DNA of 64,000 nucleotides from Fodinibius roseus (GTDB lineage: Bacteria > Bacteroidota > Rhodothermia > Balneolales > Balneolaceae). A program made the translations under genes and the position numbers. Below, one piece after another: positions 44,571 to 58,150 of this stretch (positions are counted from its first letter, which is position 1; every line of letters starts with the position of its first letter). Under the pieces are notes generated by a model that saw only the letters and a program-made list of their open reading frames with translations, searched no databases and was not told the DNA's origin. The stretch spans positions 1 to 64,000 of the forward strand of contig NZ_FQUS01000004.1 in NCBI RefSeq assembly GCF_900129315.1. The letters are read 5' to 3'.

Positions 44571-45779
44571 TTACTCATATCTCAGCGCATCAATGGGATC
44601 CATCAAAGCAGCGCGTCGAGCCGGGAAAAAACCGAAAATAATGCCTACCAGCCCTGAGAAAAGAAAGGCGATTACGATAATATCCAGATTAAATACAAAG
44701 GGTATGCCCAATGCCGGGGCCGTAACTGCCGCCAGCCCCAGCCCTAATCCTATGCCAATAATTCCACCAAACAGTGACAGTATAATTGCTTCAACAAGAA
44801 ACTGAAGCAGTACCTCTCGGCCCAGTGCCCCTATGGCAAGGCGAATACCAATTTCCCGGGTTCGTTCGGTCACTGAAACGAGCATAATATTCATAATTCC
44901 AATACCTCCCACCAGAAGACTGATGGCAGCAATAGCACCGAGAAAAGTAGTTAAAATCCCGGTCGTGCTCTCTACCGTACGGGCAACCTGGGCCATGTCA
45001 TTCAGTTCAAAATCATCTGTATCACCCGTCCTGATATTCCGACGCTCCCGCATTAGTTCAGTAATATCTTCTTGTACCTGCTCGCTTGAGATTTCACTCT
45101 CGGCAGATATATAAATCATATTGACATCCGTATTTCCGCGCATTCTTCGATGAAGGGTTTTAACCGGCGTCAGAATAAAATCATCCTGGTCCATCCCAAA
45201 GGTCGATTCTCCCTTTGATGTCAATACACCGATAACCGTACATGCTATTTTCCCCAGCCTGATCTTGGCATCCAGCGGATCCAGTGAGCCAAACAATTCT
45301 TCGGCCACTGTTGACCCGAGCAAACAAACCGTCTTCCCGATCGCAAGTTCATTGGCCGAAAAAGCCCGTCCCCTTTCGATTTCCCACATGCGGACGGTAA
45401 GATATTTGTTATCTGTCCCCATTACGCTGGTTGACCAGTTCGTATTGCCATAAACAGCCGTGGCTGTTGTCGAAGAGACAGGAGTCACTGCAGCAATCCC
45501 TGCAATATGGTTATCGATCGCTTCAACATCTTCAAGCTTGAAAGGAGTTGCTGATGTTCTTATGCCTCCGTGACCTTCGTTGGTACCGGGACGAAGGATC
45601 AGCAAATTACTGCCGAGGCTTGTAATTTCATTGGTTATTTGCGAGGTTGCGCCCCCGCCCAGGGTCACCATACTGATGACCGCTCCCACGCCAATCACAA
45701 TACCGAGGATAGTCAGAAATGACCGCATCATATTGCGTCCGATTTCTGAAACGGCCAGTTTTATGGTATTCCAGATCAT
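44571..45779 (-). CDS. MacB-type ABC transporter permease
   Basis: 402 aa. MacB-PCD and FtsX domains: an N-terminal span (MMRSFLTILGIVIGVGAVIS), the large periplasmic domain (SLGSNLLILRPGTNEGHGGI) and three C-terminal spans (AAISLLVGGIGIMNIMLVSV, LFGGIIGIGLGLGLAAVTAP, IIVIAFLFSGLVGIIFGFFP). It forms with the ATPase a mechanotransmitter that extrudes substrates via an adaptor, or exports lipoproteins or peptides. It overlaps the ATPase stop by 4 bp. The ATPase and adaptor are encoded upstream. Confidence 0.93.
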   Translation of the reverse strand: MIWNTIKLAVSEIGRNMMRSFLTILGIVIGVGAVISMVTLGGGATSQITNEITSLGSNLLILRPGTNEGHGGIRTSATPFKLEDVEAIDNHIAGIAAVTPVSSTTATAVYGNTNWSTSVMGTDNKYLTVRMWEIERGRAFSANELAIGKTVCLLGSTVAEELFGSLDPLDAKIRLGKIACTVIGVLTSKGESTFGMDQDDFILTPVKTLHRRMRGNTDVNMIYISAESEISSEQVQEDITELMRERRNIRTGDTDDFELNDMAQVARTVESTTGILTTFLGAIAAISLLVGGIGIMNIMLVSVTERTREIGIRLAIGALGREVLLQFLVEAIILSLFGGIIGIGLGLGLAAVTAPALGIPFVFNLDIIVIAFLFSGLVGIIFGFFPARRAALMDPIDALRYE

Positions 45780-46540
45780 TGATGGATCACCCGGTTATTT
45801 TGGATATTTGAAATTCGTCCATCCAGAAAATGTACGGTTCGATCCGCATATTCCGCCATTGCTCTTTCATGGGTAACCATGATAATGGTAATTCCGCGAT
45901 CTTGATTTAATTTGGTAAGCAGATCCATAATTTCACTCCCCTTTTTTGAATCCAGATTTCCGGTGGGCTCGTCGGCCAGCAACAAGCTTGGATTGGTAGC
46001 AATAGCCCGTGCAATAGCTACGCGCTGCTGTTCTCCACCCGAAAGCTGTGCCGGGGTATGATGTTCACGACCCTCAAGGCCCACTTCCTTCAAGGCGGTA
46101 AGTGACATTTTCTGGCGAACCGATTTTTTATATCCGCGATAAACAAGCGGCATTTCAACATTTTCTATGGCTGTTGTTCTTTTCAGCAGGTTGTACCCCT
46201 GAAAAATAAAACCGAGATAATGCCGGCGCAGCAGTGCCCGCTGATTTCGACTGAGACCGCCCACCGCTACCCCCTTAAATCGATACGAACCTGAAGACGG
46301 CGTATCAAGGCAACCGATAAGATTCAGGCACGTTGATTTTCCGGAACCACTGGGACCCATAATTGCTACAAACTCTCCTTCGTTTATGGCAAGATCTACT
46401 TCATCCATGGCAATAACCTGCGCACGTCCGACCCCGTAAACTTTGCTCACCTTGCTGAAATCGACCAATGGCAACCCTGTCTTTTCAGCCCTTTTATCTT
46501 TGTCGTTCCCCGACCGTGGTAATATAGAAGTATCCATCAA
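45776..46540 (-). CDS. ABC transporter ATP-binding protein (MacB-type)
   Basis: 254 aa. Walker [21 protein letters not shown]-loop [15 protein letters not shown], signature [15 protein letters not shown], Walker [17 protein letters not shown], and H-loop [12 protein letters not shown]. All motifs intact. It matches the LolD/MacB/FtsE class. It overlaps the permease by 4 bp and abuts the adaptor gene's end, forming the second gene of the operon. Confidence 0.95.
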
Positions 46541-47776
46541 TCACTCTTCCCTTTTAATATTAACAAGCACTTCCGTGCCGGACTCTACACCCGACACAAT
46601 TTCCGTATGCCGGTCATCTGCTATTCCTGTTTTTACCGGAACAACTACGGGCTCCCCATTTTCCAGAATCCAAACCGATGTATCCTCTCCTTGATTCTTC
46701 TCAAATCCGGGGGGTATAAATCGCAAAGCACTATTAGGTACCCTTGTCACATCCCTTGCCTCATTGATCACAATATCTGTGGAGGCCGTCATGCCGGGCC
46801 ACAACAACATCCCGCTGTTATCAACGCTCAGGATTGCTTCGTAGGTAACCACCCCCGCCTCTATCCGGGGAGCATAGTACACTTTTGTAATTACAGCGGA
46901 AAAGGTCATATCGGGATAGGCATCTACTTTAAAGTTGGCTTCCTGGCCTTCTTTGACCTGCCCGATATCGGCTTCATCGACGTCGACGTGCAGTTCCATT
47001 CGCCTGAGATCTTCGGCCAGCGTAAATAATACCGGAGTCTGGAATGAAGCGGCAACGGCCTGGCCGGATTTAATCGTACGGATTAAAACAATACCATCGA
47101 TCGGAGATCGGATGAATGCTTTTTCCAGCCGGGTTTCCGCCATATTGAGGGTCGCCCTGCCGGCAGTAATCTCTGCACGTACGGCGGCTACATTCGACTC
47201 AGCTGTCGCAAGTGAAGCTTGTGCCATTTCGACTTCCTGCAAAGAGATCAGATCCTGGCGGGCCAATATTTCGGCCCGATCTGTCTTTGCCTGCTGCTCC
47301 TCGAGTGCGGCCAAAGCCTGCCTGAGAGAAGCTTCTGATGCCTGCAAGGATGCCTGAGCCTGGGTCACTTCCGCTTCGAGTTGATCGGTATCGAGTTCAG
47401 CCAAAAGCTCCCCGGCCGAAACCTGATCATTATAATCGACATAAACGGACTTAACGAGTCCGGAAATTTCGCTGCCGATTTCTACGGTATGGACGGCCTG
47501 TAAATCTCCGGTGGCAGAAACAATGACAGTAATATCACCGCTCGCAACTTTTTCTGTTACAAACGTTGTGGGAGCCGTTTCAGTAAACTGATTCCATCCC
47601 CAGGAAATACCCAAAAGAATAGCAATAACAATTAACCCATACACCATTTTTTTGCGGGTGGATATACCACCATCCTCTCCTGTGCCGAGCGTTTTTTCAA
47701 CTTCTTTGGGATCAATGAACCTGTGCCCGGACTCGGTTTTTTTGGTCTGATCTACTTTTTCATCCGATTCAATCAT
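46541..47776 (-). CDS. MacA-type membrane-fusion adaptor
   Basis: 411 aa, with one N-terminal membrane segment (MVYGLIVIAILLGISWGW), so it is anchored in the inner membrane. Domains: lipoyl-like halves (SGLVKSVYVDYNDQVSAGEL and FIRSPIDGIVLIRTIKSGQA), helical hairpin with coiled coil (about 125-190), beta-barrel. It connects the MacB-like permease with an outer-membrane channel, not encoded here. First gene of the three-gene operon; a 28-bp palindrome lies 10 bp upstream. Confidence 0.93.
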   Translation of the reverse strand: MIESDEKVDQTKKTESGHRFIDPKEVEKTLGTGEDGGISTRKKMVYGLIVIAILLGISWGWNQFTETAPTTFVTEKVASGDITVIVSATGDLQAVHTVEIGSEISGLVKSVYVDYNDQVSAGELLAELDTDQLEAEVTQAQASLQASEASLRQALAALEEQQAKTDRAEILARQDLISLQEVEMAQASLATAESNVAAVRAEITAGRATLNMAETRLEKAFIRSPIDGIVLIRTIKSGQAVAASFQTPVLFTLAEDLRRMELHVDVDEADIGQVKEGQEANFKVDAYPDMTFSAVITKVYYAPRIEAGVVTYEAILSVDNSGMLLWPGMTASTDIVINEARDVTRVPNSALRFIPPGFEKNQGEDTSVWILENGEPVVVPVKTGIADDRHTEIVSGVESGTEVLVNIKREE

Positions 47777-47814: not shown

Positions 47815-48267
47815 AAATCAGCTTTTGGGAGTCCGGATTATAAGAGGCAAAATGCGAAACATACCGTAATCATAATCCCTACATAACCTAAATACCCCGG
47901 GTTGATCTGGTTCCCGGATGCTACGCATCATTAGAACCGTGTAACCAGCGGAAAAAAGAACAAATGAGGGAATCCACTACCTGATATACAGCTTTGCCCC
48001 ACTATAGTAGATTAACTGCCTCTCAAGGGGATGGTTGACTCACTATTTCCCGTTTTCAGGATATCCACAAATACTCATATTCTCCTTCGCGGATAATAAG
48101 ATATGCCGCAGGAGCATCAGAATACCGACAATGTTGGAAATCATCCAGGGTATTAAATTATATCAGGACCCTTCATCTATTATTGGCTTATTTGTTGGAT
48201 GTATTACAAATATTATGGTGGCACCGACGCATAAAACGCCTGACCTGACAGCCGGTTGAATCAGTGT
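47815..48267. other. 453-bp spacer, no gene seen
   Basis: I find no supported gene. The GC-rich block CCCCGGGTTGATCTGGTTCC (about 47899-47918) is not part of a larger structure I can identify. The 74-aa and 96-aa frames here have no family features. Confidence 0.4.
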
Positions 48268-48609
48268 TCAGTTTTCTGGGAGCTGCCCGGCAATAGCCAT
48301 AATAATGGGTATCGCTATGATAATGTTGGCTATTGTACCGTACTTGGCATCGCTCCAGGAGAGGATAATGAGCAGCTGTGAAACGACCACCGCAACAGCT
48401 CCCACCATCCACCAGATATCATTCTGTGTGAAGTACAGAAAAACGGTGACCAGGAACAGTATGCATACCACCAGCCAGAACATTCCCGCTGTTTTGGATA
48501 TATCTTCGGTCAGCTGTTCGACGGGTGCTAAATCAAATGCTTTTACAAAGCCAAGCAAATGAATTAACCCGTGGATAATGATAACGAAGGACAAGATTAC
48601 TTTCTGCAT
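48268..48609 (-). CDS. Small four-span membrane protein
   Basis: 113 aa with four likely membrane segments: VILSFVIIIHGLIHLLGF, GMFWLVVCILFLVTVFLYF, IWWMVGAVAVVVSQLLIILS and TIANIIIAIPIIMAIAG. His14 and His17 flank the first. I do not recognise a named family (resembles DUF-type 'GIHLLGF' membrane proteins). A degraded relative of its first half lies at 52367-52585. Flanking DNA also resembles that copy (GGCAT(G/T)AGCGTC, ATGCTTCAAATA). Confidence 0.65.
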   Translation of the reverse strand: MQKVILSFVIIIHGLIHLLGFVKAFDLAPVEQLTEDISKTAGMFWLVVCILFLVTVFLYFTQNDIWWMVGAVAVVVSQLLIILSWSDAKYGTIANIIIAIPIIMAIAGQLPEN

Positions 48610-48770
48610 GGTAAATTTAATTTTTAGTGTTTAATATGTCTCTTGAATGATTGGCATGAGCGTCAAAATCAATAAAATCACAACTGCTAAACCCACTCCA
48701 TAAACAATTGATACACTGGCTTAAATTTTTAGTGTATACTTCAAATAATGGTCGAAGCTGATACGAGCAA

Positions 48771-49931
48771 TCACTCTTCCACTGAAGGATATAACAATAA
48801 AAGGGTCAATAGTTCAGCACGTTTAAGCGTCTCTTCCAGAAATATTTTCTCATGATAAGCATGAGCACCTTCCCCCACGGCGCCAAGTCCGTCAATAGTC
48901 GGAGAAAAGAGATTAGTAAAGTTACCGTCGGAGCCGCCGCCTGATTTACCCTCTTTCAAATGCAAATCCAAATCCGCACCCAGGGATTTCGTTATCTCCC
49001 ACAGCTTTTGGTTGGCTTCATTTTTTTCAAGTGGGGGACGTCCTATACCACCGGTTGCTGTAATTTCAATGCCATTTAGACGGGGATCGATATTATAAAT
49101 CTTATTCTTTATTTCGTTACCGTCTTCCGTTGTCGGAACCCGTACATCAACTACAGCTTTACTTTTTGCAGCCACAACATTAGCCCGTTCGCCACCCTCT
49201 ATCGTCCCTACATTTACGCTTATGCCCTTTTCAGGGTCATTAAGTTCCACCAGCTGCTGAACAACATTTGATAACCCGACAATGGCACTTACGCCTTTTT
49301 CTGGGTCAAGTCCCGCATGCGAAGGTTTACCCTTGATAATTATTTCAAACTGACCTATGCCTTTGCGTTCAGTCTTGATTTTACCTTCCGTTCCAAGTGA
49401 AGGCTCCAGCACAAAGGTCCGTTCTGCCTGCTTTGCCTGTTCAATGATAAGATTTTTGGATTCCCTGCTGCCAATTTCTTCATCAGTAGTAATCAAAAAA
49501 ACAGGCTGTACTTCAAAAATTTTCCCCAGCTCACGGATGGCTTTCATAGCAAAAATCATCATGCAGATGCCGGCTTTCATATCAAAGATTCCCGGGCCAC
49601 TGACTTTGTTGCCATCTACGGAGAAAGGCATATCATTCAGCGTTCCGATATTCCATACGGTGTCAACATGTCCGAGTACAAGCTGAGTTGGAACCTGTGA
49701 ATTAAAACCTTCCGGTTTACAAAGCAGTTGTCCCGCAGTCTGCTGACCTTCTGTATGCTCAACATTGAAATCCAATTTTTGAAAATTGTGGCTGATAATT
49801 TCCAGAATTTCAGTAAAAGAGGCAGGCTCTTTTGACGGCGTCTCCTGCTCGACAAGGGATTGTAGCAGGTTTATAAAATCCGCTTTCCTTTCCCTAAAAA
49901 AACTGTGCAGCTCCCGGCCTAAATCTGTCAT
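48771..49931 (-). CDS. M20-family metallopeptidase (carboxypeptidase G2 type)
   Basis: 386 aa. Zinc ligands are visible in LVLGHVDTVW (His), GIFDMKAG (bridging Asp), FLITTDEEIGSRES (catalytic Glu and metal Glu), FVLEPS (Glu) and GAHAYHEKIFLEET (C-terminal His). The dimerisation domain (about 185-285) starts with GQFEIIIKGKPSHAGLDPEK. The fold hydrolyses peptide or N-acyl-amino acid bonds; carboxypeptidase G2 relatives act on C-terminal glutamate. No signal peptide, so it is cytoplasmic. Last gene of the STAS/GNAT operon, 11 bp after the flavin reductase. Confidence 0.92.
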   Translation of the reverse strand: MTDLGRELHSFFRERKADFINLLQSLVEQETPSKEPASFTEILEIISHNFQKLDFNVEHTEGQQTAGQLLCKPEGFNSQVPTQLVLGHVDTVWNIGTLNDMPFSVDGNKVSGPGIFDMKAGICMMIFAMKAIRELGKIFEVQPVFLITTDEEIGSRESKNLIIEQAKQAERTFVLEPSLGTEGKIKTERKGIGQFEIIIKGKPSHAGLDPEKGVSAIVGLSNVVQQLVELNDPEKGISVNVGTIEGGERANVVAAKSKAVVDVRVPTTEDGNEIKNKIYNIDPRLNGIEITATGGIGRPPLEKNEANQKLWEITKSLGADLDLHLKEGKSGGGSDGNFTNLFSPTIDGLGAVGEGAHAYHEKIFLEETLKRAELLTLLLLYPSVEE

Positions 49932-49942
49932 ACCCTGTTTAA

Positions 49943-50557
49943 TTATCTTTTAAAATCTTTTGGCAAAGGAAAGTTATGGCTTTTTTTGATTATACTGAAT
50001 CGGTTGGGGTGCAGGTAGGCCAGCAAAGGGGAGTCATTAATTATTTTATTGTCGCGGGAATCTTCTCCCTCTTTTCGAAGGGCATCCTCGTGTACGTAGG
50101 CCGCAACAATTTCACCGACAATTATTTCCCATTCCCCAAACTTTCCCATGATTTCATGGAGAGTACATTCCAGCTGCAGGTAGGAATTCTCCATAAACAC
50201 TCCTTCAATAATTTGGGCTTTTACGGTTGGAATAGCCTCAATAACCGGTTTGCTGTCATCATCTTCGCGGGGAGAAGCTGCCAGGCTGGTTTGTACAAGC
50301 TGATCCGGCTGTGGAAAGCTGACCGTAAAAACTTCTTCCCGCTTAATATTTCGATAAGTCGTTTTCCGCGGCGTACCTATAAAGCCGAAGTAGGGGCCAA
50401 AACCAAGGGGCATAGCCATATGTTTAGGGGCCATGTTAAAACTCCCGTCTTTTTCTTTGCTGCCAATAATAAGCAGTGCATGAACCATAAAGAAGCGAGT
50501 CCACAAATTCGGGTTATCGGTAATGTCGATCATTGGTGAAGAAGATTGATCAGCCAT
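49943..50557 (-). CDS. Flavin reductase-like (FMN-binding split-barrel) protein
   Basis: 204 aa. The split barrel is visible from LWTRFFMVHALLIIGSKEKD through APKHMAMPLGFGPYFGFIGT, PRKTTYRNIKREEVFTVSFP to IIEGVFMENSYLQLECTLHE. It belongs to the flavin reductase/DIM6/NTAB family that binds FMN and either supplies reduced flavin or carries out a redox step. Cytoplasmic. It sits 11 bp from both neighbours in the compact operon; its redox partner is not seen here. Confidence 0.88.
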   Translation of the reverse strand: MADQSSSPMIDITDNPNLWTRFFMVHALLIIGSKEKDGSFNMAPKHMAMPLGFGPYFGFIGTPRKTTYRNIKREEVFTVSFPQPDQLVQTSLAASPREDDDSKPVIEAIPTVKAQIIEGVFMENSYLQLECTLHEIMGKFGEWEIIVGEIVAAYVHEDALRKEGEDSRDNKIINDSPLLAYLHPNRFSIIKKSHNFPLPKDFKR

Positions 50558-50568
50558 AAGAAATATTT

Positions 50569-50865
50569 TCAGTTAGCTATGATTTTTTCAAAATCCCAGG
50601 TACTGTCAAGATTTAAAATTTCAAGTATTTCGAAAAGGATAGCAGGGGGTTCAATCAGCTGTAATTTATTTCCCTGTTGCAGCCAGCGGTGTAAAAAAAT
50701 AATTCCCTCACTATCAATACGTTCACAATTAATCAAGTTTATTACCAGCTTATCAATGGCCGGGTTAAGGCGACTTACTATCATCTTTTTAGTATGCAGA
50801 TTAAAATCGCCTTGTACGGTTACGTTAAGCCTTTTGCCTTTTTTCCGAGCATCTATGGTATTCAT
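50569..50865 (-). CDS. STAS-domain protein (anti-anti-sigma-like)
   Basis: 98 aa from the ATG at 50865 (MNTIDARKKGKRLNVTVQGD); an earlier ATG at 50871 adds two residues. The STAS core strands and helix are LNVTVQGDFNLHTKKMIVSR, KLVINLINCERIDSEGIIFL and HRWLQQGNKLQLIEP. At the phospho-acceptor place, DSEG has a Ser (SpoIIAA-like D-S-x-G). Such proteins bind RsbW-type kinases and are switched by phosphorylation. It overlaps the HATPase-GNAT gene by about 41 bp, so the two are translated together and are the likely partners. Confidence 0.82.
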   Translation of the reverse strand: MNTIDARKKGKRLNVTVQGDFNLHTKKMIVSRLNPAIDKLVINLINCERIDSEGIIFLHRWLQQGNKLQLIEPPAILFEILEILNLDSTWDFEKIIAN

Positions 50866-52330
50866 CAGCAATAAATGATTTTATCTTTTTCCCAAATTCG
50901 GAATAAATATCAATAATATTAAAATCAATAGCCGAGTACACTTTTTGCACCCGCAGGAAGTCAGCATTGAAATGATACTGTGGCAGCAAACCACAGTAGA
51001 GAAAATTCAGGGACATTGTAATATTTGAAAACTGCTCCGGTGTAGCTCTATTTTCAAGAGGTAGATCCAGCAATATCGTTTTAGGCGATTTTTCTTCCAG
51101 GCTGCCAAGTATACCAGAAAGTGTGGTAAAGAAATCCTGCCCGTACTTCTTAACAATAATAAGCGATGAAGAACTGGAATAGTTTATTCTCAAATCAATA
51201 TCCGATTTATCGGCCAAATGATATGGTTCTGAACCTTTTGGTTCAACATCCATCCCCAACTCATTATATGTTTCAAGAATAATCTCATTATATCTTTTTG
51301 GTAAATATACTGCTTTCTTTGGAAGATGAATAATGGGAAGAAAATCCAGAACCATGGATACCGGCTGAGAGTATTCTTCATCAAAACCTTTGTACTTTAC
51401 ATTTTTTGAGAAAGCCAGTTGCAGCGCTGTTGTCTTATATCCAAATTTATTATTTACCTTTTGGCTTACGGGATGGTTGGTAACAGCCATACCAACCAAT
51501 GTGGTTGTCTGCCGTGATCTCGCAATTTCAATAAGTTGTTCCATCATCGCACTCATCACGCCATTTCTGCGATATCTGGGAGATACAACTGCTTCGGCTA
51601 CTTCCGCAAGGTTGGAGTTGTCATTGGGAATTACGCTAAAAAAGCCAATGGCTTTTCCATCTTTATTTCGGGCAATAACCCCGAGCTTTTCTTTTGCCAG
51701 CACTGACTCTTCAATCTTTTTGGGCAAATACAAATCCTCTTTGTTATAAGTATATCCATAAGTACGATAGAAAAGTTTTGAGATTTCTTCCGCATCAGCA
51801 GGTTTAATACGCTCAACAGTAAAATCCTCAATTTTTATATGGGTATCTTCATCTTCTTCAGACCTTACCTGAGCCTCACGTTGCTCGGCCGACTGCAGCA
51901 ACAGCTCATCTATATCATGGATTTGAATATTTTTCGCCAGCCTGAATTCCTTGCCTTCCTTGCCTTTATTAATGAAGGAAAATTCATCACTGAAAGATTG
52001 CATCAGTAAAAGCCCTGCCCCCTCAAAATCATCTTCACAACGAACTTTTTGGACATCGTACGTGTGTCGGTCCGGATCAAATGGTTCCCCCAGCTCACTG
52101 ACAATAATTTCGACATTTGAGAATGTATGATGAAATTCTATCTCAAAATTTTGCTTACTGTCATCAGGAAAGGCAAAAAGAATAACATCTGTGATAAGTT
52201 CACTAACAGCTACAGAAAAGCGAAGAGCATCTCCCTTTGACAATCCGCAGTTTACTCCCCAGCTGTAGGTAAAATCACAGACCGGATTTATTATCTGCTC
52301 ATCTGTTGATATTTGGAATCTGGCATCCAT
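50825..52330 (-). CDS. RsbW-like ATPase fused to a GNAT acetyltransferase
   Basis: 501 aa. Residues 1-140 are a GHKL fold of the anti-sigma-kinase type (MDARFQISTDEQIINPVCDF, FSVAVSELITDVILFAF, ELGEPFDP, FEGAGLLLMQSFSDEFSF). The N box reads E-L-I-T-D48, with Asp for the usual Asn, so kinase activity is uncertain. Residues 168-300 are a GNAT domain with the acetyl-CoA loop SPRYRRNGVMSAMMEQLI and the C-terminal NHPVSQKVNNKFGYKT. The last 170 residues are a further unnamed domain. STAS partner encoded with overlap. The architecture couples a phosphorylation-type switch to acyl transfer; the target is unknown. Confidence 0.85.
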   Translation of the reverse strand: MDARFQISTDEQIINPVCDFTYSWGVNCGLSKGDALRFSVAVSELITDVILFAFPDDSKQNFEIEFHHTFSNVEIIVSELGEPFDPDRHTYDVQKVRCEDDFEGAGLLLMQSFSDEFSFINKGKEGKEFRLAKNIQIHDIDELLLQSAEQREAQVRSEEDEDTHIKIEDFTVERIKPADAEEISKLFYRTYGYTYNKEDLYLPKKIEESVLAKEKLGVIARNKDGKAIGFFSVIPNDNSNLAEVAEAVVSPRYRRNGVMSAMMEQLIEIARSRQTTTLVGMAVTNHPVSQKVNNKFGYKTTALQLAFSKNVKYKGFDEEYSQPVSMVLDFLPIIHLPKKAVYLPKRYNEIILETYNELGMDVEPKGSEPYHLADKSDIDLRINYSSSSSLIIVKKYGQDFFTTLSGILGSLEEKSPKTILLDLPLENRATPEQFSNITMSLNFLYCGLLPQYHFNADFLRVQKVYSAIDFNIIDIYSEFGKKIKSFIADEYHRCSEKRQKA

Positions 52331-52366
52331 ATTCGCTACTGAAGATCATTGGTTCATACTGAATAT

Positions 52367-52585
52367 TCAATATTTATGGCAAATTACAATTTCCTTCAGG
52401 ACTGCTTGCTGAATATTCCTGACTGATATTATTTTCAACATATCTTCGGTCAGCTGTTCGGCAGGGGCTAAATAATATGCATTTACAAATCCCGGCAAAC
52501 GCATTAACCCGTAGACAACGATGACAAATGCGAAGATTATTTTTTCCTTAATAAATGTTATACATTTGGGTTTACACTTTCTCAT
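52367..52585 (-). pseudogene. Degraded copy of the four-span membrane protein
   Basis: 72-aa frame. Residues about 15-53 (IIFAFVIVVYGLMRLPGFV, NAYYLAPAEQLTEDMLKI) align with residues 4-41 of the 113-aa protein at 48268-48609 (VILSFVIIIHGLIHLLGFV, KAFDLAPVEQLTEDISKT); after that the frame runs into unrelated sequence. Only the first quarter of the original survives. It lies between the GNAT operon start and the outer-membrane gene, 4 kb from the intact copy. Confidence 0.75.
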
Positions 52586-52986
52586 TCTCTTTTAAACCCA
52601 TATCGAACAGAAGGCATTAGCGTCAGCCCCAAGCAAATAAGCAGCAATTTGTGTTGGCCAAATAGCTTGGTTGTATGCTTCAAATACGTGTAAAAATTGA
52701 TCTATCGCAAAAACGGCAGTTAAATCATCTCATGCCTCTCGTGTTATTACTGCTATAAAAAACTTACGAGATCATCGATTAAACCTATGGAAGGAAAACC
52801 CGTCGATTCAATGTAGGGAAATCACTTATATTCGCGCACGCCAAGTACCTACAGCAGACTGAGCCGGACTTCTTACATATTTTAGAATTATAAAATGGTA
52901 CTCTAAAAGTGAACGGCTTATTTATCACAACTAAATCTGAAATACGTGAAAAAACCATCTAACTAATAAAACAAGAGGAATATATC
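52586..52986. other. 401-bp spacer with operator-like motif
   Basis: The first 120 bp resemble the flank of the intact membrane gene (48610-48730). GTAGGGAAATCACTTAT at 52813-52829 is the second member of the shared motif. No gene supported; it must contain the promoter for the outer-membrane protein. Confidence 0.5.
52813..52830 (+). promoter_or_regulatory. Shared operator-like motif upstream of the barrel gene
   Basis: GTAGGGAAATCACTTATA, 157-174 bp upstream of the ATG. It shares GTAGGGAAA with 41979; right arm is less conserved. Confidence 0.35.
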
Positions 52987-53571
52987 ATGAAATCAATTAT
53001 TAAAACGATTCTGCTGAGCGCAACTATTATTCTGGTTACCCAGTCGGTTTACGCCCAAAACATATTCAGTCTGGAACTACGTACCGGGGCCGACTTTGCT
53101 ACCCAGGAATTGGGTGACGCTGACCTGAATACCGGATTCGGCTTTGATGGTATTCTAACCTACCGGATTATGCCTCACACTTCAATCTTTGGCGGCTGGG
53201 GATGGCATCGATTTACCTCGGATGATTCTTTTGCCGGTTCAAATATGGATTTCGAAGAAACGGGATATACCTTCGGAATGGAATTTTTACATCCACTGGG
53301 TAATATGCCAATGAGCTTCTATATCCGGGGAGGCGGCATCTACAATCATGTCGAAGTTGAAAATAGCGACGGTGATATCACGGCCGATTCAGATCATGGG
53401 CTGGGATGGCAGGCAGGGGCTGGCGTCGCTTTTGATATTGGGAATCGCTGGATGTTGAAGCCGGGTGTACGATATCGTTCACTGTCAAGAGATATTGAAG
53501 TCGGAAACGTATCTTCGGATGTTGATCTCACATATTTCAATATAGCTGTAGGTATAGCAAAAGTTTTCTGA
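52987..53571 (+). CDS. Outer-membrane beta-barrel protein
   Basis: 194 aa. Signal peptide MKSIIKTILLSATIILVTQS ending VYAQ-N. The mature part is eight-stranded-barrel-like with alternating aromatic strands (SIFGGWGWHRFTSDDSF, ETGYTFGMEFLHPLG, MSFYIRGGGIYNHVEVEN, MLKPGVRYRSLSRDIEVG) and the C-terminal Phe (GIAKVF) needed for outer-membrane insertion. It fits OmpW/PF13505-type small barrels; ligand unknown. A perfect hairpin follows (53589-53614). Confidence 0.85.
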   Translation: MKSIIKTILLSATIILVTQSVYAQNIFSLELRTGADFATQELGDADLNTGFGFDGILTYRIMPHTSIFGGWGWHRFTSDDSFAGSNMDFEETGYTFGMEFLHPLGNMPMSFYIRGGGIYNHVEVENSDGDITADSDHGLGWQAGAGVAFDIGNRWMLKPGVRYRSLSRDIEVGNVSSDVDLTYFNIAVGIAKVF

Positions 53572-55716: not shown

Positions 55717-56613
55717 TTACTGATTATTTTCATCCATAGACTGGGCCGCCTCAAAGCCCGCCATAATATCCAGCAGCTCGCTGGTAATGGCCGACTGGCG
55801 TTCGTGCGTATAAGCCCGGTTCAATTTTTCCAGGCGCTCATCTATTTTCTTCTCGGCCTGCTGCATGGCAGACAATCGACTGGTATACTCGGCAACAAGC
55901 GACTCGGCCACAGCGCGGTAAAGAGATACAAACAAATATTGCCGAAGCAGCGAGAGGAACAGGGTATGTGCATCTGCCCTGTATTGGGGTAAATTATTGG
56001 TCGGCCAGGGACGATCAACCAACCGCTCCAGCCAGCGTTTGTTCAGCGGAAGCAGATGCTGGCTGTGGGACGTATATCCCTCTTTATCAGCGGGCTTGTT
56101 ATGCAATACCCTTATCGAACGGATATCCTGTGTTGCCTGCCACTCTTCAATACCAGCCAGCAGATCCAGCACCAGTCCACCGATCCCGCCAGCCGAACCG
56201 GGCAAAATAAACTGCTTGTCTACCGACACGCCCGCCTGATGCAAATAACCGGTCAGTCGTTCTCCCAACACAAAGAACTGTGTGTCCCTTTTTTTATCTT
56301 CCCTGATCTTTTCCAACGTATAGGTTAGTATCGACTCATCAAATGGACCGCACAGCGACTGGCTTGAGCCAATAACAATGATCCCGGCTGATCCCTCATC
56401 ATCCGATGAAAGGAAAGGGCGAGCCTCACTGAATTCTCTGGAAAGCACAACCTGCAGGCCCCGTTCAAGAGTATCGTAATAGTCACCAAGCGAATCGGCG
56501 GCATCCTCAAACTGATGAATACCTACCGAAGCCATAACTTTCATCGTCCGAACAATAGACTGTAAGTCTTCCGCATTCTTAACTTTGCGCTGTAGCTGTT
56601 CAAGTTTCTGCAT
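55717..56613 (-). CDS. atpG: N-ATPase F1 gamma subunit
   Basis: 298 aa. N-terminal helix MQKLEQLQRKVKNAEDLQSI, VRTMKVMASVGIHQFEDAAD and C-terminal helix AEKKIDERLEKLNRAYTHER, QSAITSELLDIMAGFEA are the rotating shaft. The central domain holds GIIVIGSSQSLCGPFDESIL. It is more diverged from ordinary AtpG than AtpA/AtpD, typical of N-ATPase gamma. It is the last gene of the operon and overlaps the AtpA stop by 14 bp. Confidence 0.9.
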   Translation of the reverse strand: MQKLEQLQRKVKNAEDLQSIVRTMKVMASVGIHQFEDAADSLGDYYDTLERGLQVVLSREFSEARPFLSSDDEGSAGIIVIGSSQSLCGPFDESILTYTLEKIREDKKRDTQFFVLGERLTGYLHQAGVSVDKQFILPGSAGGIGGLVLDLLAGIEEWQATQDIRSIRVLHNKPADKEGYTSHSQHLLPLNKRWLERLVDRPWPTNNLPQYRADAHTLFLSLLRQYLFVSLYRAVAESLVAEYTSRLSAMQQAEKKIDERLEKLNRAYTHERQSAITSELLDIMAGFEAAQSMDENNQ

Positions 56614-58150
56614 GCTCCTGCTCCTTCTTTAACGATTCAAGCACTGTTTCCGCCAGATCGAGCAAATATGTCCGCTCCTCTTCCGTAATATCTTCCTGCC
56701 AGTCGATCTTTTGATTCAGTTCATCGGAATGCTCCCGGTAGATTTCCCGGATCTCCCGTTTGGCTTTTTCGATTCGGTCGAGCGGAATATCATCCATCAG
56801 CCCTGAGATCAGCGCCAGCAGCAGTAACATTTGTTCCCCAATGTCCAGGGGCTCAAATTGCGGCTGTTTTAAACTCTCGCGAATCAACCGTCCGCGTTCT
56901 ATGGTTTTCCTGGTATCTTCATCGAGCCGTGAGCTAAACCGCGAAAACGCTTCCAGTTCTTCAAATTGTGCATAGGCCAGTCGGAGTTTTTTGGTTACCG
57001 AACGGTAGGCCGGGCGCTGGGCCGCACCACCGACCCGTGAGACCGACTTCCCGGCGTCAATGGCCGGCATCACATCTTTTTGGAATAGTTCCGGAGACAG
57101 ATAGAGCTGTCCGTCGGTAATAGAAATCAGGTTGGTAGGTATAAAGGCCGATATATTTTGAGCCTGTGTCTCCACTATGGGCAAGGCGGTCAGCGACCCG
57201 CCTCCATGTTCCTCCTTTAGGCGGGTCGAGCGTTCCAGCAATCGCGAGTGTATGTAAAAGATATCGCCGGGGTATGCCTCCCTGCCGGGGGGACGCCGAA
57301 GCAGCAGGGCCAGTTCCCGGTAAGCCCGGGCATGCCATGTTAAATCATCGTAAATAATCAGCACGTCTTTTCCCCGCTCCATAAAATACTCCCCGATGCT
57401 GGTTGCTGCATACGGGGCGATATACTGCAGTCCCACCGGGTCTTCACTCCCGGCCGAAACGACAATCGAATAGTCCATGGCTCCGTGTTCCCGCAAGTCG
57501 GCTATAACACGGGCCACCGCTGCTTTCTGCTTACCGATACCGCAATAAATACAGATTATACCTTTATCGTGCTGATTGATTATGGTATCCACGGCAATAG
57601 CCGTCTTGCCGATCTGCCGGTCTCCTGCAATCAGTTCGCGCTGCCCCCGTCCGATCGGAAACAGTGCGTCTATCACTTTGATACCTGTCTGCAGCGGGGT
57701 TTCGACGGGACTTCGGTGCATGATGGGCGGGGCCGGACGTTCTACCGGCAGGGTTTCGTTTGCAGCCAGCGGCTTTTTCCCGTCAAGCGGACGACCGATG
57801 CTGTCTACCACCCTGCCCAGAAGCTGTTCTCCGACAGGAACGCTCAATATATCAGATGTCCGGTGAACTTCATCACCGGCTTCTACATACTGCTCCTCAT
57901 CCAGCAAAATAATACCCGCTTCCCCGGAATCCAGGTTGTAAACAAGTCCCGGCACCCGGCGTTCGCGCGTGTCTATGTATACCAGCTCATCGATTCCCAT
58001 ATGCGGTAATCCGCGCACCCTGATGAATCCCTCTCCCACCGACATGACCACTCCGTATTCGCGAAGCCGCATATCCGGGCTCCGCTGAAGCGCCCGATCC
58101 AGCCGGGCTCCGGACTTTTCAAGTACTGAATCAAGTATTCGGTCAGTCAT
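56600..58150 (-). CDS. atpA: N-ATPase F1 alpha subunit
   Basis: 516 aa. Non-catalytic nucleotide-binding subunit: N-terminal barrel VMSVGEGFIRVRGLPHMGID, then Walker A GDRQIGKTAIAVDTI, Walker B-like DVLIIYDDLTWHARAYREL, and the alpha signature QLYLSPELFQKDVMPAIDAG..SVSRVGG. The C-terminal helices end with TYLLDLAETVLESL. Separated from atpF by 183 bp, the only large gap in the operon. Confidence 0.95.
   Translation of the reverse strand: MTDRILDSVLEKSGARLDRALQRSPDMRLREYGVVMSVGEGFIRVRGLPHMGIDELVYIDTRERRVPGLVYNLDSGEAGIILLDEEQYVEAGDEVHRTSDILSVPVGEQLLGRVVDSIGRPLDGKKPLAANETLPVERPAPPIMHRSPVETPLQTGIKVIDALFPIGRGQRELIAGDRQIGKTAIAVDTIINQHDKGIICIYCGIGKQKAAVARVIADLREHGAMDYSIVVSAGSEDPVGLQYIAPYAATSIGEYFMERGKDVLIIYDDLTWHARAYRELALLLRRPPGREAYPGDIFYIHSRLLERSTRLKEEHGGGSLTALPIVETQAQNISAFIPTNLISITDGQLYLSPELFQKDVMPAIDAGKSVSRVGGAAQRPAYRSVTKKLRLAYAQFEELEAFSRFSSRLDEDTRKTIERGRLIRESLKQPQFEPLDIGEQMLLLLALISGLMDDIPLDRIEKAKREIREIYREHSDELNQKIDWQEDITEEERTYLLDLAETVLESLKKEQEHAET

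Follow-up and report, generated by a model that had tools for sequence, protein, structure and literature searches.

We analysed a window of 64,000 nucleotides from Fodinibius roseus (contig NZ_FQUS01000004.1, positions 1 to 64,000) and focused on four genes, here named A, B, C and D, which a preliminary description of the same DNA had singled out as a compact operon. We propose that these genes encode a partner switch with an acyltransferase as its output, coupled to amide hydrolysis and redox chemistry, and we give this reading a probability of about one half. The four genes form one tight operon on the minus strand and are a real unit, with the following features:

50825..52330, minus strand: gene A, 501 amino acids, with RsbW-like HATPase, GNAT and C-terminal domains (Pfam, predicted structure, homologues)
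51911..52330, minus strand: HATPase domain, A residues 1-140 (structural match to RsbW 6m37_C, RsbW alignment)
52199-52201, minus strand: codon of A Glu44, the catalytic-type residue
52220-52222, minus strand: codon of A Arg37
52187-52189, minus strand: codon of A Asp48, in the N box
51314..51829, minus strand: GNAT domain, A residues about 168-339 (Pfam and structure)
50828..51313, minus strand: C-terminal domain, A residues 340-501, probably a degenerate half fold of the GNAT type (from a model of residues 330-501 by themselves)
50569..50871, minus strand: gene B, STAS protein of 98-100 amino acids (open reading frame (ORF), profile match, alignments)
50710-50712, minus strand: codon of B Ser54, the phospho-acceptor position
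50629-50631, minus strand: codon of B Glu81
49943..50557, minus strand: gene C, 204 amino acids, flavin-reductase-like FMN split barrel (Pfam, PDB profile match 1eje)
48771..49931, minus strand: gene D, 386 amino acids, M20 metallopeptidase, carboxypeptidase-G2-like, the last gene of the conserved set (Pfam, 1cg2/6xj5)

Genes B and C are separated by 11 bp, as are C and D, and genes A and B overlap. The overlap is 47 bp if B begins at its listed TTG (100 amino acids) and 41 bp if it begins at the ATG of codon 3, at 50865 (98 amino acids), which is probably the true start. An A/B overlap was present in all 27 complete four-gene loci, the window counted, using longest-ORF starts, which may overstate the overlap. 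The coordinates, strands, sizes and tight spacing given in the preliminary description were borne out by the ORF positions. Comparison of the window with its nearest relative indicated purifying selection on all four genes, with nonsynonymous divergence (dN) of 0.08-0.12 and synonymous divergence (dS) of 0.70-1.20. A promoter and terminator scan of positions 48200-53100 gave counts close to those of shuffled sequence (15 against a mean of 13.7, standard deviation (sd) 4.1; 5 against a mean of 4.4, sd 2.2), and therefore we claim no promoter or terminator.

The preliminary description had staked the grouping beforehand on a search of genomic neighbourhoods. In that search, B, C and D were found downstream of A, in that order, at 26 of the 27 Balneolaceae A genes, and the 27th (L091) lies at a contig end with no sequence after A. 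Among the first 24 loci with a full-length A homologue, all 17 that belong to the same family (A identity 38-81%) kept the order and strand of A-B-C-D. Seven other window genes had no match in any of the 24. Together these results place the grouping far beyond chance. The other seven of these loci are remote (A identity 23-29%) and were without C and D. To cover the wider family we used 64 distinct full-length A proteins, obtained after merging copies and selected for having both the HATPase and the GNAT parts. Outside Balneolaceae, one Rhodothermales locus (L077) likewise carries A-B-C-D, four loci carry A-B-D, three carry A-B, and six have a STAS gene nearby. When all 64 A proteins were placed in a tree, those of the A-B-C-D, A-B-D and A-B groups, 35 rows in all, fell into one clade (100/100), within which the Desulfurobacteriaceae (Aquificota; A-B only) branch outside the Balneolota, Rhodothermota and Bacteroidota rows.

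The genes are also inherited together. Strong matches to A, C and D were found in the same 15 genomes among 58 relatives. Over 92 family genomes, at thresholds of E 1e-30 for A, 1e-20 for C and 1e-40 for D, A was present in 26, C in 25 and D in 30. C occurred solely alongside A (25 of 25), and the 26th A reaches its contig end. Pairwise distances across 18 loci were correlated, as expected of genes inherited together (A-D 0.96, C-D 0.95, A-C 0.94 and A-B 0.83; pairs with B ranged from 0.83 to 0.89). Named strains of Fodinibius halophilus, Gracilimonas amylolytica and Rhodohalobacter sulfatireducens are among the hosts of the operon. The extra families that recur beside the Balneolaceae four-gene loci look, by eye from cluster lists, like lineage synteny or antisense ORFs. 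An assignment to anti-phage defence was rejected, with no PADLOC family matching A-D at E 0.01.

The first domain of A is of the kinase type. It matched HATPase_c_2 with 42 bits (Pfam cut-off 27.4), and in the predicted structure of A (mean predicted local distance difference test score (pLDDT) 84.9) it aligned to RsbW in the RsbV/RsbW complex (6m37_C) with a VIA-align Z of 17.5 and a root-mean-square deviation of 1.7 over 115 residues; a fold match to SpoIIAB was also found. The catalytic-type Glu44, which aligns with RsbW Glu49, is present in all 35 clade members and in 61 of the 64 A proteins overall. The fold matches to RsbW and SpoIIAB would also suit an ordinary stress-response switch, with A as the anti-sigma factor and B as its antagonist, and with the GNAT domain and C-D as passengers in loose association. 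We consider this highly improbable: Pfam scans of A-D and three neighbouring genes found no sigma factor, A falls far under the NCBIfam cut-off for RsbW (anti-sigma B factor; 32 against 145 bits), and the GNAT fusion is widespread, being present in 64 distinct full-length proteins, with a separate-gene version beside STAS and HATPase genes at another locus (L195, see below).

The partner of this domain in the proposed switch is B. On its own, B was below threshold against the Pfam STAS models (22.0 against 29.2 bits and 17.5 against 22.6 bits). A profile of 21 sequences matched TM1442, RsbV and SpoIIAA with E values of 9e-7 to 5e-5; three of its 21 rows are ordinary STAS proteins from remote loci, and 7 of the 25 rows in the corresponding A profile are remote members. 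By these matches B is predicted to be a divergent RsbV-like STAS protein. Its acceptor position, residue 54, is Ser in 25 of 34 rows and Thr in the other 9, and aligns with RsbV Ser56.

Profile alignments placed A Glu44 on RsbW Glu49, A Arg37 on RsbW Asp42, B Ser54 on RsbV Ser56 and B Glu81 on RsbV Arg87, with residue numbers counted along the alignments. Among the contacts described for the RsbV-RsbW crystal structure, RsbW Glu49 contacts RsbV Ser56, and RsbW Asp42 contacts RsbV Arg84 and Arg87 (PMC7340262). At A37-B81 the charges are reversed relative to RsbW/RsbV: A has Arg or Lys and B has Glu in 25 of 34 rows, the window included, and three Desulfurobacteriaceae rows have Glu in A and Lys or Arg in B. 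We spotted this pair first from the PMC7340262 contacts on the alignments and afterwards scored all column pairs. Of 1320 pairs that switch sign on both sides, A37-B81 ranked first for charge complementarity (28 opposite and 2 same of 34). After shuffling of the B rows, 34 of 10000 trials scored as high, a frequency that is not a probability because the rows are related. We regard the covariation as apparent support for A-B binding and not as proof. Because Glu44 and Ser/Thr54 are kept and the Asp42-Arg87 contact is charge-swapped and covarying, A and B probably bind like RsbW and RsbV. The preliminary description had called them a partner-switching pair, a claim that is supported by the fold, the kept catalytic and acceptor residues and the covariation at the predicted interface.

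The output would be the GNAT domain of A, which matched Acetyltransf_1 with 48 bits (Pfam cut-off 20.7) and GNAT structures with Z up to 13.9. GNAT proteins usually carry the acyl-CoA pyrophosphate loop motif R/Q-x-x-G-x-G/A, and in the corresponding loop of A, R254 is kept in 63 of 64 proteins and G257 in 58 of 64; position 259 is Met, Phe or Leu in 61 of 64. The preliminary description had left the C-terminal domain unnamed, and this part of it can be refined. Folded alone, residues 330-501 gave a pLDDT of 90. In Foldseek the best rows were GNATs, at E of about 1e-4 over about 90-160 alignment columns with a TM score of 0.3-0.4 by query length. With a structural aligner, the matches were to the N-terminal domains of NUDT6/7, to GNATs and to antizyme; the highest Z was 7.3, and none reached Z 8. 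On these weak scores (Z below 8, low TM) we cautiously read the domain as a probable degenerate half-GNAT. Gene A is thus read as a fusion of three parts: a kinase domain of the RsbW/SpoIIAB fold, a GNAT domain and, probably, a degenerate half-GNAT. FeeM-like N-acyl amino acid synthesis was considered as a function and rejected, the FeeM match being weak (E 0.19).

The GNAT domain could instead act on proteins. In this alternative the phospho-switch controls lysine or N-terminal acetylation, perhaps of C and D, which would then be targets and not partners in a cycle; cyclic-nucleotide- or amino-acid-sensing domains fused to GNATs act in this way in known regulators. The structural neighbours of the domain include the protein acetyltransferases RimI and Ard1/Naa10, and the Desulfurobacteriaceae have A-B without C-D, both of which fit. 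However, the neighbours equally include small-molecule enzymes acting on phosphinothricin and polyamines, and the occurrence of C solely with A in the family suggests a metabolic link. We judge a protein acetyltransferase to be rather unlikely.

Gene C matched Flavin_Reduct (PF01613) with 54.1 bits against a cut-off of 27, and its PDB profile matched the FMN-binding protein 1eje (E 7e-12) and, more weakly, 2-nitrobenzoate nitroreductase and flavoredoxin. By these matches, C is an FMN split-barrel protein and a putative flavin enzyme. Gene D was above the Pfam cut-offs for Peptidase_M20 (79 bits) and M20_dimer (74 bits). The domain types named in the preliminary description were recovered, with the HATPase and GNAT domains, the flavin reductase and the M20 peptidase above Pfam cut-offs and the STAS domain through the profile. 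The solved structure nearest to D is carboxypeptidase G2 (1cg2/6xj5, E about 1e-51), to which (1cg2) D aligns over residues 19-359 with the putative zinc-ligand positions kept, and with R298 on the Arg of the Gly-Arg-Pro (G-R-P) motif. H88, D117, E151, E152, E176 and H357, which we take to be the metal and base residues, are invariant in 18 of 18 sequences. D differs from carboxypeptidase G2 in that it scores 218 bits with the NCBIfam model for glutamate carboxypeptidase, whose cut-off is 349 bits. It is under the curated cut-off throughout the best 25 of 52 NCBIfam rows, so these matches do not assign it a substrate. Synthesis of an N-acyl compatible solute, such as N-acetylglutaminylglutamine amide, was set aside, with no synthetase among the four genes. 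A second M20 amidohydrolase lies directly upstream of A in A-B-D loci without C (L079:6559-7827 and L087:6633-7877, by Pfam), and ORFs clustering with it are also found in L077, L082 and L085.

We propose the following mechanism. A would dimerise and bind ATP through its RsbW-like domain, and unphosphorylated B would dock on that domain, as the fold and the covariation suggest, where it would set the activity of the GNAT domain on A's own chain. Phosphorylation of B by A at Ser/Thr54 would release B, which would then be reset by a SpoIIE-type phosphatase whose gene lies elsewhere in the genome. The GNAT domain would acylate a small molecule or a protein to give an N-acyl amide, and this amide-bearing metabolite, or its precursor, would also be the substrate of D and C, the M20 and flavin proteins. 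The phospho-switch would in this way choose between acylating the compound and breaking it down. The proposal takes as its basis the operon, the co-inheritance, the folds, the kept catalytic and acceptor residues and the covarying interface position; from these we infer dimerisation, phosphorylation, the direction of control, the substrate and the roles of C and D. In the same genome we found three STAS_2 matches and four SpoIIE-type phosphatase matches. Away from the operon, at G000:C11:75000-83000 (L209), STAS, RsbW-like and SpoIIE-phosphatase genes stand in a row, and the phosphatase there is a candidate source of the phosphatase step. The partner-switch reading is supported by these four SpoIIE-type matches, one of them beside a STAS and an RsbW-like gene, and by the adjoining separate genes for a GNAT relative, a STAS protein and a HATPase in L195.

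The preliminary description had interpreted the operon as a phospho-switch over acylation and de-acylation. This is supported in part: the co-occurrence search did not refute it, and the partner-switching logic is well supported at the level of sequence and fold; what has changed is that A-B and C-D are separable and that the C-terminal domain of A looks like a degenerate half-GNAT. A cycle of acylation and de-acylation is a reasonable idea, and a proposal. In its most specific form, a Ser-phosphorylation partner switch would gate an acyltransferase that the kinase itself carries, and the amidohydrolase and the flavin enzyme of the operon would oppose it. The result would be post-translational on/off control of a cycle of acylation and de-acylation on an undescribed N-acyl metabolite, as part of a HATPase-GNAT family over several phyla. 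We offer this full version tentatively.

Several observations weigh against the proposed switch. The N-box Asn is replaced: the window has Asp48, as the preliminary description had noticed, and so do most of the clade (Asp in 32 of 35 and Asn in 3), with Asp in 0 of 29 rows outside it. The N-box Asp is a lineage mark of the clade with B directly downstream. The G1-box Asp has likewise given way to Glu in nearly all of the clade (34 of 35) and also in 10 of the 29 rows that lie outside it. Both changes may reflect altered ATP or metal use, or weakened or lost kinase activity. Carried to its end, this would make A a protein without kinase chemistry, B a constitutive or ligand-sensing subunit, and the pair an ATP- or metabolite-sensing acyltransferase complex. 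The concentration of the N-box Asp and the G1 Glu in the clade favours such a loss, but the G1 Glu is also found outside the clade, and a non-phosphorylating pair would not need Glu44 in 35 of 35 A proteins or Ser/Thr54 in 34 of 34 B proteins. That both are kept argues that phosphate transfer still matters, and we find loss of the kinase unlikely.

The remaining points concern the acyl-CoA loop, the interface and the distribution of the genes. The loop of A has Met at the place where GNATs mostly carry Gly or Ala. At A37-B81, two rows have Lys/Lys and four have an uncharged residue or His in A with Glu in B, and the sign switch comes mainly from one lineage, the three Desulfurobacteriaceae rows, and is essentially a single evolutionary event. 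No STAS gene was detected within 1.5 kb of 23 of the 64 full-length A genes; for nine of these, the sequence on either side spans about 1.5 kb or less. Among the 58 relatives, genomes without the operon hold weak relatives of C (seven genomes, E 5e-4 to 5e-8) and of D (six genomes, E 4e-22 to 3e-28). D accompanied A in 25 of its 30 family genomes and occurred without A in the other 5 of the 92 (G212, G273, G336, G343 and G353, in the last of which D stops at a contig end), and second D matches are present in G303 and G022 (the one in G022 is partial). C and D were not found in the three Desulfurobacteriaceae genomes searched. C-D pairs also stand away from A-B (L155:7164-9370, L156:3314-5455, L157:1-1880 and L158:4833-6655). 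In three genomes with an A-B-D locus (G370, G371 and G372), C lies elsewhere, beside a second D, in L157, L155 and L156 respectively; the fourth pair, L158, shares the genome G369 with the Rhodothermales A-B-C-D locus. A further A-B-D genome, G373, has no C and a single D. We conclude that A-B and C-D are two separable modules, joined in the operon of the window. Given A-B without C-D, and C-D pairs and single D genes away from A, a shared substrate is not required.

Relatives of A extend beyond this clade. Of a sample of 247 genomes from another phylum, 40 had a match: in 20 of them it was a full-length A, in 19 the GNAT and C-terminal parts only (about 350 amino acids), and in one an A shortened at its 5' end. 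L195 has the parts as separate genes, side by side, for a relative of the GNAT and C-terminal part of A, a STAS protein and a HATPase; the first was found by A's profile and has no Pfam match of its own. In the full version of our proposal, HATPase-GNAT regulators would make up a wider family over several phyla that has apparently gone unnoticed.

Other arrangements were seen among these relatives. Proteins of about 440 amino acids at L195:13672-15000 and L190:9894-11210 weakly match the HATPase and C-terminal parts of A, and not the GNAT part. Four GNAT and C-terminal matches stand in a row at G467:C100:7651-11772 (in L189), and at G496:C84:7211-17977 (in L190) two adjoin and a third lies about 7.5 kb off; none of these has the HATPase part. 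At L154:3081-8316 and L205:4807-10050, a HATPase-less GNAT and C-terminal relative found by A's profile (without a Pfam match in L154) adjoins a carrier-protein-like gene, whose PP-binding match fell short of the cut-off of 20.8 bits in L154 (19.3) and exceeded it in L205 (30.1). Their neighbours include an AMP-binding enzyme, an aminotransferase (by Pfam in L154 and by eye in L205) and a protein of 424-437 amino acids without a Pfam match. This context hints that the GNAT family may use carrier-bound acyl groups.

Elsewhere in the window, three genes at 44571-47776 resemble a MacAB-type ABC efflux set (permease, ATPase and HlyD-like protein), and two genes at 55717-58150 resemble F-type ATPase genes, one for the gamma and one for the alpha subunit, and may close an alternative (N-type) ATPase operon; all five were judged by eye from translations.

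The A-B pair resembles RsbW/RsbV and SpoIIAB/SpoIIAA in its kinase fold, its catalytic-type Glu, its STAS partner with a Ser/Thr acceptor and the equivalent interface position. It differs from them in its fused GNAT output, its N-box Asp and its swapped interface charges, and the A-B-C-D set has no sigma factor or phosphatase gene. Sensor-domain GNAT regulators, which are cyclic-nucleotide- or ACT-domain-fused acetyltransferases, share with A a regulatory domain fused to a GNAT, whereas in A the sensor is of the kinase type and has a STAS protein as its partner. In Vibrio SypE/SypA and Bordetella BtrW/BtrV, too, a kinase of the RsbW type acts on a STAS protein away from the classic sigma pathway; these are partner switches without a simple sigma output, and to our knowledge neither carries an acyltransferase. 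SypE/SypA and BtrV appear as partner switching outside the classic sigma pathway in a review whose main text has no occurrence of acetyltransferase or GNAT (PMC8256260). Full-text literature searches, outside which most subscription papers lay, gave no paper, among those listed, on a GNAT fused to a kinase of the RsbW type, and the operon appears undescribed in the full-text literature, as the preliminary description had suggested.

Partner switching is one of the main signalling devices of bacteria, and classically it governs sigma factors and other regulators. For this small operon, the evidence points to exact residues, namely A Glu44, A Arg37, B Ser54 and B Glu81. If our reading is true, partner switching would also drive metabolism or protein acylation directly, through an acyltransferase on the same polypeptide.

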